Shown here piece after piece: positions 3,904 through 62,974 of a stretch of 64,000 nucleotides of DNA. The translations under genes and the position numbers were made by a program. Numbering within the stretch: the first letter of the stretch is position 1; each line of letters begins with the position of its first letter. The notes under the pieces are model-generated. The model made no database searches. It had not been told where the DNA came from and worked only from the letters and a program-made list of their open reading frames with translations. The stretch is from an uncultured Lachnospiraceae bacterium (GTDB lineage Bacteria > Bacillota > Clostridia > Lachnospirales > Lachnospiraceae). The stretch covers positions 1 to 64,000 of the forward strand of contig CAMWXE010000016.1 of assembly GCA_947178145.1 (NCBI GenBank). Direction: 5' to 3'.

Positions 3904-4235
3904 TTACTCTCCAATATGCACCACTTTCGCTTGTGGATAATCCCGCAAAATCTTATCGGTATCCCTGTGCGTGACAAGGATGACGGCTGCGTCGGAATCC
4001 AGGAACTGATAAACCTCACTCAGCCGGCTATGATTGACGCTTGCGTCTGCTTCGTCCAGCAGAATCAGCGGACTTGACACTTCTCGCATCACGGACAGGT
4101 TCTCGAGCTGCACCTCACCGCCAGAGCCTTCCCGCTCAAAATAACAATAGCTGTCCTGATTTTGCAAAAAAAGCGTTGCAAAGTTCCGCAGCTCACAATC
4201 CGCAGTCTCTTTACCGTCTAACAATATATGCCCTT
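3904..4235 (-). pseudogene. C-terminal remnant of a second ABC ATPase
   Basis: DEGHILLDGKETAD...GSGGEVQLENLSVMREVSSPLILLDEADASVN...AAVILVTHRD; no Walker A; begins just after the HelD remnant stop. Confidence 0.7.
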
Positions 4236-54938: not shown

Positions 54939-55078
54939 AACCTTCCAGACATTGCAGAAAATGACAACAAATGGATAAAAAGACAGAAGCAAAAACGCTT
55001 GACTTTGAAAAAATATATGATATGCTTTTGTCAAATCATAGTAAAACTATAGTTAAAGTATGAAAAGGAGAGGATATT

Positions 55079-57045: not shown

Positions 57046-57681
57046 ATGTGGAACATTATAACAAAGGCAGCAGGACAGACTGTTTATATGGTGGCAGGCT
57101 CCACGCTGTTTTCTGTGATACTTGGTTTTATACCGGCAATGATACTGACGCTGACTGCGCCAGATGGGCTTAGGCCAAACAGACTGATCTATGGAATACT
57201 TGATGCGATTGTCAATATTTTCCGGAGTTTTCCGTTTGTCATTCTGATGGTGATCATTATTCCGTTTACCAGACTGATCGCGGGGAAATCAATCGGGACA
57301 AAGGCGGCGCTTGTGCCGCTGACAGTGAGTGCGATTCCTTTTGTCGCGAGAGTGATCGAGACAGCTCTCCGGGGAGTTGACAGTGGACTGATTGAAGCGG
57401 CGCGGTCCTTTGGTGCCAGCGATGCGCAGATTATCCGGCGCGTGTATCTGAAAGAAGCATTTCCCGGCATCATATCAGGTATCACACTCACCATGATCAA
57501 CCTGATCGGTTACAGTGCCATGGGAGGCGCCATCGGCGCAGGCGGTTTGGGTGATGTGGCGATCCGGTATGGCTATCAGGCATATAAAATACCGTATCTG
57601 GTCGTAACCAGCATTATTCTGATCGTTTTTGTGCAGGTGATACAGAGCGTTGGGAATCTGCTGTACAAAAAGCTGATGTGA
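57046..57681 (+). CDS. metI: MetI-type ABC permease
   Basis: NIFRSFPFVILMVIIIPFTRLIAGKSIGTKAALVPLTVSAIPFVARVIE, YSAMGGAIGAGGLGD. Confidence 0.93.
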   Translation: MWNIITKAAGQTVYMVAGSTLFSVILGFIPAMILTLTAPDGLRPNRLIYGILDAIVNIFRSFPFVILMVIIIPFTRLIAGKSIGTKAALVPLTVSAIPFVARVIETALRGVDSGLIEAARSFGASDAQIIRRVYLKEAFPGIISGITLTMINLIGYSAMGGAIGAGGLGDVAIRYGYQAYKIPYLVVTSIILIVFVQVIQSVGNLLYKKLM

Positions 57682-57826
57682 TAAATAGGAGACGAAAACC
57701 ATGGGAAGCATGGTGCAGCGACAGAAAGGAGCAGGGCAGCGGGGGTTGAGCCGATGGAGATAGAGGATTAGGAATAAACTATTATAGATAGAAGGCAAAA
57801 GCGATAACCATATTTGTGAAAGTCTG

Positions 57827-57890
57827 TTGACAGGATAAATGTGGCAGTGTATAATATAAAACATATTATTCCTACTATAAAAGTAGGAAT
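57827..57890 (+). promoter_or_regulatory. Consensus sigma-A promoter and downstream dyad operator candidate
   Basis: TTGACA (57827-57832) - 17 bp - TATAAT (57850-57855); dyad ATTCCTACT (57868-57876)/AGTAGGAAT (57882-57890). Confidence 0.85.
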
Positions 57891-57916
57891 AGAGATGCGA
57901 GGAAAGGAGAAAACAT

Positions 57917-58021
57917 ATGAAAGGAAAAAGGATCGTTGTTAAGACAAGAAACAATATGTGCTGTTGCTGTCAGACTATATGGAAGAATATGGTTTCCTTT
58001 TCCTGTGCAATATGCGTCTAG
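57917..58021 (+). CDS. 34-aa Cys-rich putative leader peptide
   Basis: MKGKRIVVKTRNNMCCCCQTIWKNMVSFSCAICV*; GGAAAGGAGA RBS at 57901-57910; 6 Cys, 4 consecutive (TGC TGT TGC TGT). Confidence 0.7.
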   Translation: MKGKRIVVKTRNNMCCCCQTIWKNMVSFSCAICV

Positions 58022-58041
58022 CTTACAAAATCACAGTGTAG

Positions 58042-58075
58042 GCAGTTGTCATATGTGTATGGCAGCTGCTTTTTT
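58042..58075 (+). terminator. Intrinsic terminator/attenuator downstream of the leader peptide
   Basis: GCAGTTGTCATA-TGTG-TATGGCAGCTGC then TTTTTT; 12-bp stem with two G-U pairs. Confidence 0.85.
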
Positions 58076-58212
58076 CTTGCATAGGTCATAATTGCTTTGG
58101 AAACTGATATTGGACAAAATACAGGCAATACGAAAAGTTATCACAAAACAGTTCCTTGTATGCGGCAAAACAGTGTGGGCAATAAGATATTGCCAAGGAG
58201 GAGAAAAAAGTT

Positions 58213-59304
58213 ATGATAGAATTCAGAAATGTGAGTAAGGACTTTGAGGCGAAAGACAGAAAGGTGCATGCATTAAAAAATGTGACACTGAAAATTGAAA
58301 AGGGTGACATCTATGGAATCATAGGTTTCTCGGGAGCTGGGAAATCAACCCTGCTGCGCGCCATCAATGCATTGGAAAAGCCGGATGCAGGAGCGGTGCT
58401 CATCGATGGCGAGGATATCCATCAACTTCCGGCGAAGGCTTTGCGGGCAAAACGCAAGCAGATCGGAATGATTTTCCAGCAGTTTAATCTGCTGGAGACA
58501 AAGACGGTCTATGAAAATATCGCGCTTCCGCTCAAATTAAACAAGGTTCCAAAGAGTCAGATCCGCAAAAAGGTGGAGGAGATTCTGGAATTTGTGGAAC
58601 TCTCGGATAAGCGGGACGCCTATCCGTCAAAGCTGTCAGGCGGGCAGAAACAGCGTGTCGGCATTGCGCGGGCGCTGGCAACGGAACCATCTGTTTTGTT
58701 GAGTGATGAGGCGACAAGCGCACTTGATCCAAAGACGACAACTGCCATTCTGCAGCTGCTCAAAAAGATCAACCGCGAGCTGCACATTACGATTGTGCTG
58801 ATCACACACGAGATGAATGTGATTCAAAGCGTATGTAATCATGTGGCGGTGATGGAGAATGGCGAGATTGTGGAAAAAGGCGATGTGATTGATGTGTTCA
58901 GTGAGCCGAAGGAGCTTATCACAAAGAATTTTGTAAAGACGGTTATCCCGGACAGTGTTCCTGAAAAACTGATCAGAAGTATTCAGAACGATACAAGAAA
59001 TTACAACATACTGCGTCTGAAATTTTTGAATTCCGACAGCACAGAGTCGGTGCTTGCAGCAATCAACAAGCGATATGATGTGGAGACGAATATTTTGTTT
59101 GCCAATATCAGTGAAATACAGGAGACCATCCTTGGTATTATCATAGTGCAGGTGATAGGAAGTCCTGCTGAAATCAATAAGGCACAGTCGTATCTCAGGG
59201 CACAGAAAGTCGGCTATCAGGAAGTCGGTCTCGGAGAAGCAGAAGCACCGCTCTATGCGCCAGATAAATCAAAGGAATATGTGACGGATATCGTACCTGC
59301 ATAG
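58213..59304 (+). CDS. MetN-type ABC ATPase, second system
   Basis: GIIGFSGAGKSTLLRAINALEKPDAGAV, KLSGGQKQRVGIARALATEPSVLLSDEATSALDPK, C-terminal NIL-like domain. Confidence 0.92.
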   Translation: MIEFRNVSKDFEAKDRKVHALKNVTLKIEKGDIYGIIGFSGAGKSTLLRAINALEKPDAGAVLIDGEDIHQLPAKALRAKRKQIGMIFQQFNLLETKTVYENIALPLKLNKVPKSQIRKKVEEILEFVELSDKRDAYPSKLSGGQKQRVGIARALATEPSVLLSDEATSALDPKTTTAILQLLKKINRELHITIVLITHEMNVIQSVCNHVAVMENGEIVEKGDVIDVFSEPKELITKNFVKTVIPDSVPEKLIRSIQNDTRNYNILRLKFLNSDSTESVLAAINKRYDVETNILFANISEIQETILGIIIVQVIGSPAEINKAQSYLRAQKVGYQEVGLGEAEAPLYAPDKSKEYVTDIVPA

Positions 59305-59391: not shown

Positions 59392-60069
59392 ATGAAAGAA
59401 TTGATTGAAAGTTTTTTAGGAATACCATTGAGCAAAATCAGTGTTTCCATCAGCGAGACATTATATATGGTGAGCATTGCATTGATAATCGGCGCAATAC
59501 TGGCATTTATCATATCGATTGTGCTGATTTTTACCAGAAAGGGAGGACTGTATCAGAACACGGTTGTCTATAATCTCATTAACATTATCATCAATGTGAT
59601 ACGAAGCACGCCGTTTGTCGTTCTGCTGATTGCCGTGATGCCATTGACAAAGGCGCTCATCGGAACACGGATCGGACCGACTGCAGCGATTGTGCCGCTG
59701 ACGATCTATATCGTGCCGTTTCTGTCGCGTCTGATGGAGAACTCACTGCTCGATACCGGGAAAGGAATCCTGGAGGCAGCGCAGTCCATGGGAGCGACAT
59801 TCTGGCAGATTATTTTTTACTTTATCCTGCCGGAGTCCAAAGGTTCCCTGATTCTGTCGCTGACTACAGGAATCGTAGGTCTGATTGGTGCCAGTGCGAT
59901 GGCAGGATACATAGGAGGCGGTGGCATAGGAAGTCTTGTGCTGAATTACGGATACAACAGATTTAACTTTGAGTTGATGTATTCACTCGTAATCCTACTG
60001 ATTATTGTGACACAGGTCGTGCAGTCTCTGGGAAACAGCTTAGCCCAACGGGCAAGAAAAAATAATTAA
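59392..60069 (+). CDS. MetI-type ABC permease, second system
   Basis: NVIRSTPFVVLLIAVMPLTKALIGTRIGPTAAIVPLTIYIVPFLSRLMENSL, GASAMAGYIGGGGIGSL. Confidence 0.92.
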   Translation: MKELIESFLGIPLSKISVSISETLYMVSIALIIGAILAFIISIVLIFTRKGGLYQNTVVYNLINIIINVIRSTPFVVLLIAVMPLTKALIGTRIGPTAAIVPLTIYIVPFLSRLMENSLLDTGKGILEAAQSMGATFWQIIFYFILPESKGSLILSLTTGIVGLIGASAMAGYIGGGGIGSLVLNYGYNRFNFELMYSLVILLIIVTQVVQSLGNSLAQRARKNN

Positions 60070-60100: not shown

Positions 60101-60955
60101 ATGAAAAGATTCAAAAAAGCAGTCGTGACAACCACATTTGCAGCACTGATAGGAATAATCGGTCTGACGGGGTGCGGAAAAACCGCGGATAATGCGGCGA
60201 GTGCTTCTGTAACTGACGAGAAGACTGAGATTGTATATGGAAAAGGTGTAGGACCGTACTCGGAACTGTTTGAGGAGGCCATTGTACCGATTCTGGAGAA
60301 AAAGGGCTATACGTTTACCGCGTCGGAACTTGACCTGAATCAGGCCGATGCTGCAATCACAAGCGGGGACGTTGACCTGTCCGTCGAACAGCATACAGCA
60401 TACATGGATGCATTTAACGAGCAGGCGGGCGGCCATTTGGTGGCGCTCTCAAAGATTCCTACTGTGCCGGCGTCCATCTTTTCAGAGAAACATGATTCTA
60501 TCGGTGAGATTGGTGACGGAATGGTCGTCGCAGTGCCGCAGGATGCCGGAAATCAGGCGAGAGCCTATGTAATGCTGCAGGATATCGGCTGGATTACGTT
60601 GAAGGAAGGAACGGATTATGCGACAGCGTCGACAGAGGACATTGCCCAGAATCCGTACAATCTGGAGTTCTATGAGCTGCAGACGAACTACATCGCGACA
60701 AGCCTGAGTGATTTTGATTACGGCGTCATCACAGGCAGTATTGTATACAACGCGGGAATTGACCCGTCAACGGCACTGTTCAATGAAAACCTGTCCGAAA
60801 GCTTCTGGCTTCAGGTTGTAGTGGATGAGAAAAATAAGGATGCACAGTGGGTAAAGGACATTGTGGAGGCGTATCAGTCGGAAGAATTTCTGACATGGCT
60901 CAGGGAAAATAATGGGCCAAAATACAGTGAGCTCTGGTCGATTCCGGAGTACTGA
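60101..60955 (+). CDS. MetQ-type substrate-binding lipoprotein, second system
   Basis: Lipobox GLTGCGKTAD; GKGVGPYSELFEEAIVPILEKKGYTFTASELDLNQADAAITSGDVDLSVEQHTAYMDAFN. Confidence 0.92.
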   Translation: MKRFKKAVVTTTFAALIGIIGLTGCGKTADNAASASVTDEKTEIVYGKGVGPYSELFEEAIVPILEKKGYTFTASELDLNQADAAITSGDVDLSVEQHTAYMDAFNEQAGGHLVALSKIPTVPASIFSEKHDSIGEIGDGMVVAVPQDAGNQARAYVMLQDIGWITLKEGTDYATASTEDIAQNPYNLEFYELQTNYIATSLSDFDYGVITGSIVYNAGIDPSTALFNENLSESFWLQVVVDEKNKDAQWVKDIVEAYQSEEFLTWLRENNGPKYSELWSIPEY

Positions 60956-61027: not shown

Positions 61028-62350
61028 ATGGATACAGTTGAAAAGAAGATTATCGATGTGATTGATGCGCACAGGGAGGAAATCATCGACTTTGCGAGAG
61101 ACATCTACAGCCACGCAGAATTGGGATACAAGGAGTTTGAGACGGCGAAGAAGTTTGCAGCGTTCAGCAGAAAGCTGGGACTTACCGTGAAGGAAGGACT
61201 TGCAGTGACCGGTGCAAAGGCGTATCTGAATCAGGACAAAAAGGACGCGGTCAGTCTTGCATTGATCGGAGAGCTGGATGCGCTGCGCATTCCAAACCAT
61301 GAATATGTCAATCCCAGGACGCAGGCGGCACACTGCTGCGGGCATCACGCACAGCTTGCAGGAATTGTGGGGGCGGCAATTGCGCTCACTGTGCCGGAGA
61401 TCGCGCAGAAGCTTGACGGACAGGTGGTATTTTTCGCGGTTCCGGCGGAAGAGTACGGAGAGATTGCGTTTAAGAACCAGCTGAGGGAAGAGGGCAAGAT
61501 CAAATATGGCGGTGGAAAGTGCGAACTGATTCGCATTGGTGCGTTTGATGACATTGATTTGAATATTGCGCATCACAGCACGAATGGAAACGCGGTTTCG
61601 TTCCGGCAGGGCGCAAACAACGGATTTGTGAGCAAGGTGATCAAGTACCATGGCAAGGCGGCCCATGCTGCCGGCAGTCCGCAGCTTGGCATCAATGCGC
61701 TCAACGCGGCGTCGATTGGACTGACTGCGCTCGCGTACCACAGAGAGACTTTCCGGGATTCTGACCATGTCAGGATTCATCCGATTGTGACAAAAGGTGG
61801 CAATCTCGTCAACGTTGTGCCTGATGAAGTCATTATAGAGACACTGGTTCGTGCGTCGAATCAGGACGCAATCGTGGATGCGGCGGAGAAGACGGACCGT
61901 TCTTTCTTTGCAGGCGGTGCGGCCATCGGCGCATCTGTGGAGATTGAGACAATGCCAGGATATCTGCCCACACTTCCGCAGGAACCGGACGAGGAGCTGG
62001 TGGAGGCGGCAAAAATAGCTGCTGGCGGCAAATACCAGGTTGAGATTGCGGATGATAAAGGCAGCGTCAGCGGCGGCTCGACAGACGTGGGAGACGTGCA
62101 GCATATTCTTCCGGTGTACACGTTCCAGACGGGAGGAATCGAGGGGAATTTTCACAGTGCGGAGTTTAAGGTCGTTGACGAGGAGCTTGCATATATCGTG
62201 ACGGCCAAGGTATTTGCATTGGGCGCTTATCGGTTATTGAAAGATGGTGCCAGGGAGGCAAAGAAAATTACTGCGGAGTATCAGCCGAAATTTACGAAGG
62301 AAGCGTATGTGGCGTTCATGGATTCCATGATTAAGAAGGAATTGCGATAA
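61028..62350 (+). CDS. M20-family amidohydrolase (aminobenzoyl-glutamate hydrolase-like)
   Basis: HAELGYKEFETAKKFAAFSRKLGL, LIGELDALRIPNHEYVNPRTQAAHCCGHHAQLAG, SGGSTDVGDVQHILP. Confidence 0.92.
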   Translation: MDTVEKKIIDVIDAHREEIIDFARDIYSHAELGYKEFETAKKFAAFSRKLGLTVKEGLAVTGAKAYLNQDKKDAVSLALIGELDALRIPNHEYVNPRTQAAHCCGHHAQLAGIVGAAIALTVPEIAQKLDGQVVFFAVPAEEYGEIAFKNQLREEGKIKYGGGKCELIRIGAFDDIDLNIAHHSTNGNAVSFRQGANNGFVSKVIKYHGKAAHAAGSPQLGINALNAASIGLTALAYHRETFRDSDHVRIHPIVTKGGNLVNVVPDEVIIETLVRASNQDAIVDAAEKTDRSFFAGGAAIGASVEIETMPGYLPTLPQEPDEELVEAAKIAAGGKYQVEIADDKGSVSGGSTDVGDVQHILPVYTFQTGGIEGNFHSAEFKVVDEELAYIVTAKVFALGAYRLLKDGAREAKKITAEYQPKFTKEAYVAFMDSMIKKELR

Positions 62351-62428
62351 ATTGGTATTGATTATTTCTGTCATAATCGTATAATATTAAGAATGGAAAT
62401 GTTGAGATACAGAAAGGACTGGTTATCG

Positions 62429-62974
62429 ATGAACAAAGAACAGGCGTGGGATTTGCTCAAAGAATATAACAAGGATGAATTTCATCTGGAGCATGCGGAG
62501 ATTGTGGGCAGTGCGATGCAGTATTTTGCCGAAAAGCTGGGATATGGAGACGAGCAGGATTTCTGGGAGGTGGTCGGAATCCTGCACGACCTTGATTTCG
62601 AGATGTACCCAGAGCTGCACTGCATCAAAGAACAGGAGATTCTGCGGGAACGCGGTGCGGACGAGCGGCTTATTCATGCGGTGGCAAGTCATGGATATGC
62701 GCTCACTGTGGATATCAAGCCAGAGCATCAGATGGAGAAGGTGCTCTACGCAGTGGATGAGTTGACCGGGTTAATCGGCGCGGTGGTGATCATGAGACCA
62801 TCAAAAAGCGTTCAGGATCTGGAAGTAAAATCAGTAAAGAAAAAGTATAAGAGCAAAGGGTTTGCGGCCGGCTGTTCCAGGGAAGTGATCGAGCGCGGCG
62901 CCGATATGCTGGGATGGAGCCTGGAGGAATTGATACAGCAGACAATTGACGCGCTGCGGACATTCCGGCCTTGA
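62429..62974 (+). CDS. HD/HDIG-domain protein
   Basis: EHAEIVGSAMQYFAEKLGYGDEQDFWEVVGILHDLDFEMYPE. Confidence 0.88.
   Translation: MNKEQAWDLLKEYNKDEFHLEHAEIVGSAMQYFAEKLGYGDEQDFWEVVGILHDLDFEMYPELHCIKEQEILRERGADERLIHAVASHGYALTVDIKPEHQMEKVLYAVDELTGLIGAVVIMRPSKSVQDLEVKSVKKKYKSKGFAAGCSREVIERGADMLGWSLEELIQQTIDALRTFRP

Follow-up and report, generated by a model that had tools for sequence, protein, structure and literature searches.

A probable cysteine-responsive leader-peptide attenuator of a metNIQ-type operon in Lachnospiraceae and its relatives with Met/Cys codons

The segment 57827-58075 on the plus strand of the window, the 64,000-nucleotide stretch of uncultured Lachnospiraceae DNA analysed here, is in all likelihood, as judged from sequence comparison, a transcription attenuator of the ribosome-mediated type, responding to charged tRNA-Cys and controlling a metNIQ-type operon. 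A cysteine-responsive leader-peptide attenuator had been proposed at this position by the first-pass annotation, and the proposal is well supported in silico by conservation in an orthologous locus (L001), by homologous leaders ahead of cysK, and by enrichment of a leader class upstream of metN. A short ORF with its own start codon and ribosome-binding site lies between promoter and first gene, an intrinsic terminator lies between this ORF and the first gene, and the Cys regulatory codons are conserved and fit the pathway of the operon. The features are as follows.

57827 to 57855, plus strand: sigma-70-type promoter TTGACA-N17-TATAAT (57827-57832 and 57850-57855, 17-nt spacer, 12/12 match), aligned in L001 as TTGACT-TATAAT
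57869 to 57889, plus strand: conserved dyad TTCCTA-N9-TAGGAA, probably a DNA operator bound by a regulator of sulfur metabolism
57903 to 57909, plus strand: Shine-Dalgarno (SD) sequence AAAGGAG, 7 nt ahead of the ATG, from the sequence
57917 to 58021, plus strand: leader peptide ORF, 34 aa with six Cys, MKGKRIVVKTRNNMCCCCQTIWKNMVSFSCAICV, from the sequence, the L001 alignment and homologous leaders
57956 to 57970, plus strand: regulatory codons ATG TGC TGT TGC TGT (Met-Cys4), from the sequence and the L001 alignment
58007 to 58027, plus strand: putative antiterminator 5' strand (region 2), which includes the leader stop codon, from the fold with a ribosome stalled on the Cys codons
58037 to 58056, plus strand: putative antiterminator 3' strand (region 3), taking in the terminator 5' arm, from the fold and the sequestration test
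58041 to 58075, plus strand: intrinsic terminator with a 13-bp stem (58041-58070) and T tract (58070-58075), from a scan and compensatory changes in homologous leaders
58213 to 59304, plus strand: metN-like ABC ATPase with NIL domain (TIGR02314, 3.6e-117, below cut-off)
59392 to 60069, plus strand: metI-like permease, from profile matches
60101 to 60955, plus strand: metQ/NlpA-like substrate-binding lipoprotein, from profile matches
61028 to 62350, plus strand: M20 amidohydrolase, probably of the same operon; an M20-like gene next to metN is also found behind a Met/Cys leader in genome G199

Promoter, leader ORF and terminator are read directly from the DNA, as are the conservation, covariation and enrichment described below. 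The consensus promoter, the good ribosome-binding site, the ORF with its run TGC TGT TGC TGT (57959-57970) and the metN-like gene starting at 58213 downstream of the terminator all agree with the first reading, and its measurements of dyad and terminator were revised. The dyad is present, but its length is 10 bp and not 9 bp (TATTCCTACT-ATAAA-AGTAGGAATA, with the core at 57869-57889); the terminator does follow the ORF and carries six Ts, but its stem is 13 bp (14 with an outer A-U pair) instead of 12 bp, and it begins 19 nt instead of 20 bp past the stop codon. Three terminator-like sites, one of them the leader terminator, were detected on both strands of 57600-58300 against 0.3 expected, and the leader RNA was more stably folded than its shuffled versions (z -4.0). 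The Rfam search of the window gave no match, with T-box core and stem I as well as the SAM aptamer (SAM-I riboswitch) absent; the 10 T-box matches and the single SAM match in the same genome are all located elsewhere. A hairpin, GAAAC...GUUUC, is formed around the Cys codons at 57946-57998, followed by CUUUUCC; it is kept in L001 and might act as a pause hairpin (1:2).

In the mechanism proposed, the sensor would be charged tRNA-Cys, with one Met codon directly ahead of the Cys run. Under ample supply of Cys-tRNA, the ribosome would reach the stop codon at 58019 and mask 58007-58027, upon which the terminator at 58041-58070 would form and transcription would stop before metN. Under scarce supply, the ribosome is predicted to stall at 57959-57970. 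Region 58007-58027 would then be open to pairing with 58037-58056 while RNA polymerase transcribes the latter, and this pairing would occupy the terminator 5' arm and allow readthrough. The ligand and the antitermination step are, like the stalling itself and the role of the operator, inferred.

The predicted antitermination was analysed by a sequestration test on 20 leaders (L001 being excluded as a close copy), in which the free energy of capture of the terminator 5' arm by the RNA freed when the ribosome stalls on Met/Cys codons was compared with that of dinucleotide shuffles. Capture in the stalled state was stronger than in shuffles (mean z -1.8, Stouffer z -8.1 for the 20 leaders) and was mostly gone with the ribosome placed at the stop codon. 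When the segments were swapped between leaders, the summed energy of -195 kcal/mol for own segments changed to -130 +/- 10 kcal/mol, and none of 20,000 permutations reached the former (p<5e-5). Textbook antiterminators were found in the folds of L132, L136, L205 and L152, and likewise in the cysK leaders. In the window, the antiterminator between 58007-58027 and 58037-58056 forms in the stalled state, with a signal that is modest against shuffles (z -1.4, fraction 0.12), and a simple duplex calculation between region 2 and the terminator arm does not single out the window (z +0.6), the ensemble sequestration test being the more discriminating of the two. The terminator remains favoured in the equilibrium fold of the window, and the attenuator model therefore needs co-transcriptional kinetics. 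The alternative pairing suggested earlier, between the Cys codons and the terminator 3' arm, can be dispensed with; a conventional antiterminator fits better. Although 8 of the 9 pairs of the earlier suggestion can be drawn in L001 as well as in the window, they follow from the match of UGY repeats with GCAGC and serve no clear regulatory role.

L001 (UBA7179; the same record as G153/L125) was the only close orthologous locus in the searched sets, with a 90%-identical operon and a MetN 90% identical to that of the window. It retains the promoter, the dyad half-sites at equal spacing, the frame, the peptide core NxMCCCCQT, the stop codon and the terminator, and its regulatory codons, ATG TGT TGC TGC TGT, differ at two of the four Cys codons, both changes being synonymous. 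By DNA search of 38 same-genus genomes, leaders homologous to that of the window were identified in G180 and G154, upstream of a gene that is cysK (TIGR01139, over cut-off). Their peptides, MNGNHVKTARTNANKMMCCCQTVWNMVFFSYA and MNGNHAVTGKVNGNEMMCCCQTVWNMVFFSYAFLCIA, share the pattern MNGNH...MMCCCQTVWNMVFFSYA with the regulatory run MMCCC, and both are followed by a terminator. Among the four leaders (window, L001, G180 and G154) the basal 10 terminator pairs hold in all, and both sides are changed at pairs 1-30 (G-U, G-C or A-U) and 4-27 (A-U, G-C or G-U). The Cys run, frame and terminator, whose conservation among related Lachnospiraceae the first-pass annotation had put forward as a check, are all kept in L001, with covariation seen in the cysK leaders. 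The cysK-linked homologues with their covarying terminator fit Cys sensing, and on sequence grounds they are the strongest evidence for cysteine supply as the signal. The run by itself is not rare, since four consecutive TGY codons occur at 39 places in the genome, and the case for the attenuator rests on conservation, not on the run. As a genome-wide leader detector the run was dropped: among 30 of the 39 runs fetched, the window's was the only leader-like short ORF with an SD sequence, with no second convincing case. A further locus, L343 (G174:C79, near 4157-4200), carries the promoter, the operator CCTA-TAATTCGAA-TAGG and the first 15 leader codons fused to the middle of an M20 amidohydrolase gene; this fusion is either a remnant of a metNIQ-operon deletion or an assembly error.

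For the wider distribution of such leaders, the sequences ahead of 197 metN-like genes (80 loci of the genome contig set, plus those of Lachnospiraceae genomes) were screened for ORFs of 10-70 aa that follow an SD sequence and have four or more Met/Cys within eight residues, a threshold fixed after the first examples were known and applied equally to the controls. Such ORFs were detected in 22 of the 197 regions, against 0 of 197 on the antisense strand and 2 of 567 for other genes of the same contigs (Fisher 7e-12), the leaders of related genera being partly non-independent and several genomes being metagenome assemblies. Shuffled regions gave a mean of 0.75 at a score of at least 4, and at a score of at least 5 there were 20 real regions and none in shuffles. 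Cys plus Met ranks top among the 190 residue pairs, though both residues are rare. Examples of the peptides are MRSYMRAYNQMMCCCCRYICGIMLYGVRFKPVLYLL (L205), MNTLSHPGFTSMNMMMCCCETMCMCNMCFTAF (L184) and MRTSYSVMSAMCCCMECMFCCCCDTLTF... (L148); most metN loci examined are without such a leader. After removal of a weak Brachyspira match (L033) and addition of L117, which has no clear SD, an intrinsic terminator was located between leader stop and metN in 21 of 22 loci, 19-101 nt past the stop.

The Met/Cys pattern ATGATGTGYTGYTGY, searched with no gene query, detected SD-preceded leaders before metN, before metQ (L263, L321), before a gene for a cystathionine synthase/lyase (L320), before an M20-like gene adjoining metN (L323) and before a gene resembling that of an amino-acid ABC substrate-binding protein (L326), while L256 precedes a thioredoxin-like protein, the last two genes being assigned by inspection; the remaining fetched matches were chance-like. 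Between the L326 leader terminator and the substrate-binding protein gene (G120:C7, near 59002) there is a second short ORF, MRTKDIHLNTSTRMCSTNRCHK, and in L240 the Rfam Clostridiales-1 RNA (RF01699) occupies 402-573, between leader terminator and metN. A contig labelled Alistipes (L003) carries a metN 61% identical to that of the window, a Met/Cys leader (MRTTVIRRVNNMMCCMCMCCCSG...) and a CCTA-N9-TAGG site, the label being a probable result of mis-binning or transfer.

The family leaders are rich in both Met and Cys, indicating that the class senses sulfur amino-acid supply and not Cys alone, and the window leader is a Cys-led member of this Met+Cys class. The same anatomy might then respond to a shortage of methionine, or of any sulfur amino acid, instead of cysteine specifically, the response being set by the Met ahead of the Cys run and by analogy with Met-rich relatives. 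Met-dominated relatives are indeed frequent (e.g. MFAAKAMNNSMMMDMMMCGMMMVMCRM and MKTTFHQNMNQNMMMTGCATMCMMCMM) and the operon is MetNIQ-type, but the run in the window and L001 consists of one Met and four Cys, and the closest homologues, with MMCCC, precede cysK; we regard a methionine or general signal as unlikely.

The promoter-proximal dyad is probably, to judge from its distribution, a DNA operator for a protein regulator. TTCCTA-N9-TAGGAA has its sole exact match in the window at the dyad, and CCTA-N9-TAGG was found in five leader regions and in 4 of 177 non-leader regions. The spacer of 9 is strongly favoured upstream of metN, and when all other lengths between 4 and 15 were tried, only spacer 10 gave matches (two). 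A one-mismatch copy stands in the same genome at the promoter of an OAH-sulfhydrylase-like (metY-like) gene, which was assigned by inspection and is followed directly by cysK. These observations altogether indicate that the dyad is likelier a protein-binding site than an RNA structure, and the bound protein would probably add repression or activation. A CymR consensus for comparison with the dyad was not found in the literature searched. Regulation by a CymR-like or other factor at this operator alone, with leader and terminator setting a constant level of attenuation, would agree with the five leader loci, the metY-like/cysK promoter copy and the four clear Rrf2-family genes in the genome; it is nevertheless very unlikely, because the operator is missing from most leader loci and the Met/Cys codon bias and the antiterminator signal would be left unexplained.

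Action of the leader on translation or mRNA stability instead of terminator readthrough is known for mycobacterial polycysteine ORFs, as far as later papers describe them (Canestrari 2020, via PMC9094748, PMC13236596), but is highly improbable here, given a strong covarying intrinsic terminator between the ORF and metN, about 140 nt ahead of the metN start. Equally improbable is a functional Cys-rich micropeptide binding thiols or, as a Met/Cys-rich sequence could, metals, with the terminator incidental, since beyond close relatives only Met/Cys richness is retained and no sequence motif, the ORF is flanked by promoter and terminator, the latter following the stop by 19-101 nt in 21 of 22 loci, and the 3' half of the ORF is constrained as RNA.

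Accounts of how Bacillota regulate their sulfur amino-acid genes usually centre on SAM riboswitches, T-boxes and CymR-like repressors. A SAM-I riboswitch occupies the corresponding position before metN in 11 of 20 phylum-wide loci scanned, and a T-box does so in one Lachnospiraceae locus. Met/Cys leaders were found in none of the best-scoring 30 phylum-wide metN loci (some with gene starts only roughly placed), and no riboswitch or T-box was detected by Rfam in 17 leader loci apart from Clostridiales-1 downstream of one terminator. From these patterns, Met/Cys leader and SAM riboswitch look like mutually replacing sensors before metN, one type exchanged for another on one operon.

Cys-codon attenuation was predicted for Rhodobacterales cysS as the uORFC-8-2 motif (Brewer et al. 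2021, PMC8632094), which shares with the window a short ORF, tandem Cys codons (near position 14-15), an intrinsic terminator and proposed Cys-tRNA-sensing, ribosome-mediated attenuation. It differs in being a prediction only, confined to Alphaproteobacteria and located before cysS, with two Cys codons and no Met run described (PMC8632094); the gene downstream in the window is metN, which sets the two apart by location. The metL leader ORF of Streptomyces lividans likewise precedes metNIQ and carries Met/Cys codons, ending in RCMCRRMCAF, but it is known in one species, on a leaderless transcript with no Rho-independent terminator found, and its authors implicate Met and Thr instead of Cys (PMC8079986); no leaderless Met/Cys ORFs were detected before metN in 12 actinobacterial loci. 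Mycobacterial polycysteine ORFs also control Cys genes by Cys-codon runs in a leader ORF, but are leaderless and are described, in the papers citing them, as translation attenuation (Canestrari et al. 2020, via PMC9094748, PMC13236596); Cys-codon attenuation was predicted in Actinobacteria, where the cys leaders of mycobacteria show no conserved terminator (PMC1262725). Leader-peptide transcription attenuators of Firmicutes include Listeria Rli60 at ilv-leu, validated by mutants (PMC5864092), and the His leaders of bacilli (PMC2965389), which differ in using branched-chain amino-acid or His codons at other operons. Such systems (predicted Cys-codon attenuators, mycobacterial polycysteine ORFs and the metL leader) are already known, and the Lachnospiraceae Met/Cys leaders are a variant of them; no description of these leaders was found in the literature searched, most subscription papers lying outside its scope.

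The attenuator of the window would belong to a Lachnospiraceae family of leaders with Met/Cys codons, whose members stand ahead of metNIQ, of cysK, of a gene for a cystathionine synthase/lyase and of an amino-acid ABC transporter. Evenly balanced between acceptance and rejection is the broader proposal of a Lachnospiraceae regulon, in which dual-codon (Met + Cys) attenuators read both tRNA pools as one signal, have replaced the SAM riboswitch ahead of metNIQ, extend their control to cysK, cystathionine and cystine-type transport genes, and are stacked with the shared CCTA-N9-TAGG operator. A major gut family appears to translate Met/Cys codons as a sensor at its sulfur amino-acid genes in place of the usual Bacillota controls, and the leaders offer a basis for regulon prediction and a hint at the substrates of NlpA-family transporters; how gut Lachnospiraceae use sulfur amino acids is relevant to H2S and thiol chemistry.

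The operon downstream of the leader runs metN-metI-metQ-M20 amidohydrolase. Cystine, the cargo suggested at first, is a candidate but unproven, the genes being MetNIQ-type and below NCBIfam cut-offs. The neighbourhood is one of sulfur amino-acid metabolism, as had been noted: upstream there is a LysR gene, genes for a cystathionine gamma-synthase/lyase and a PatB-type C-S lyase are also present there, and so is a first metQ-metN-metI operon. Directly behind the M20 gene, 62393-62974 encodes a small protein with an HD-like motif, for which no Pfam family was found. The first metQNI operon (55079) has no leader before it; its promoter region, 55010-55065, contains a CATAGTAAAACTATAG repeat, possibly the site of another regulator.
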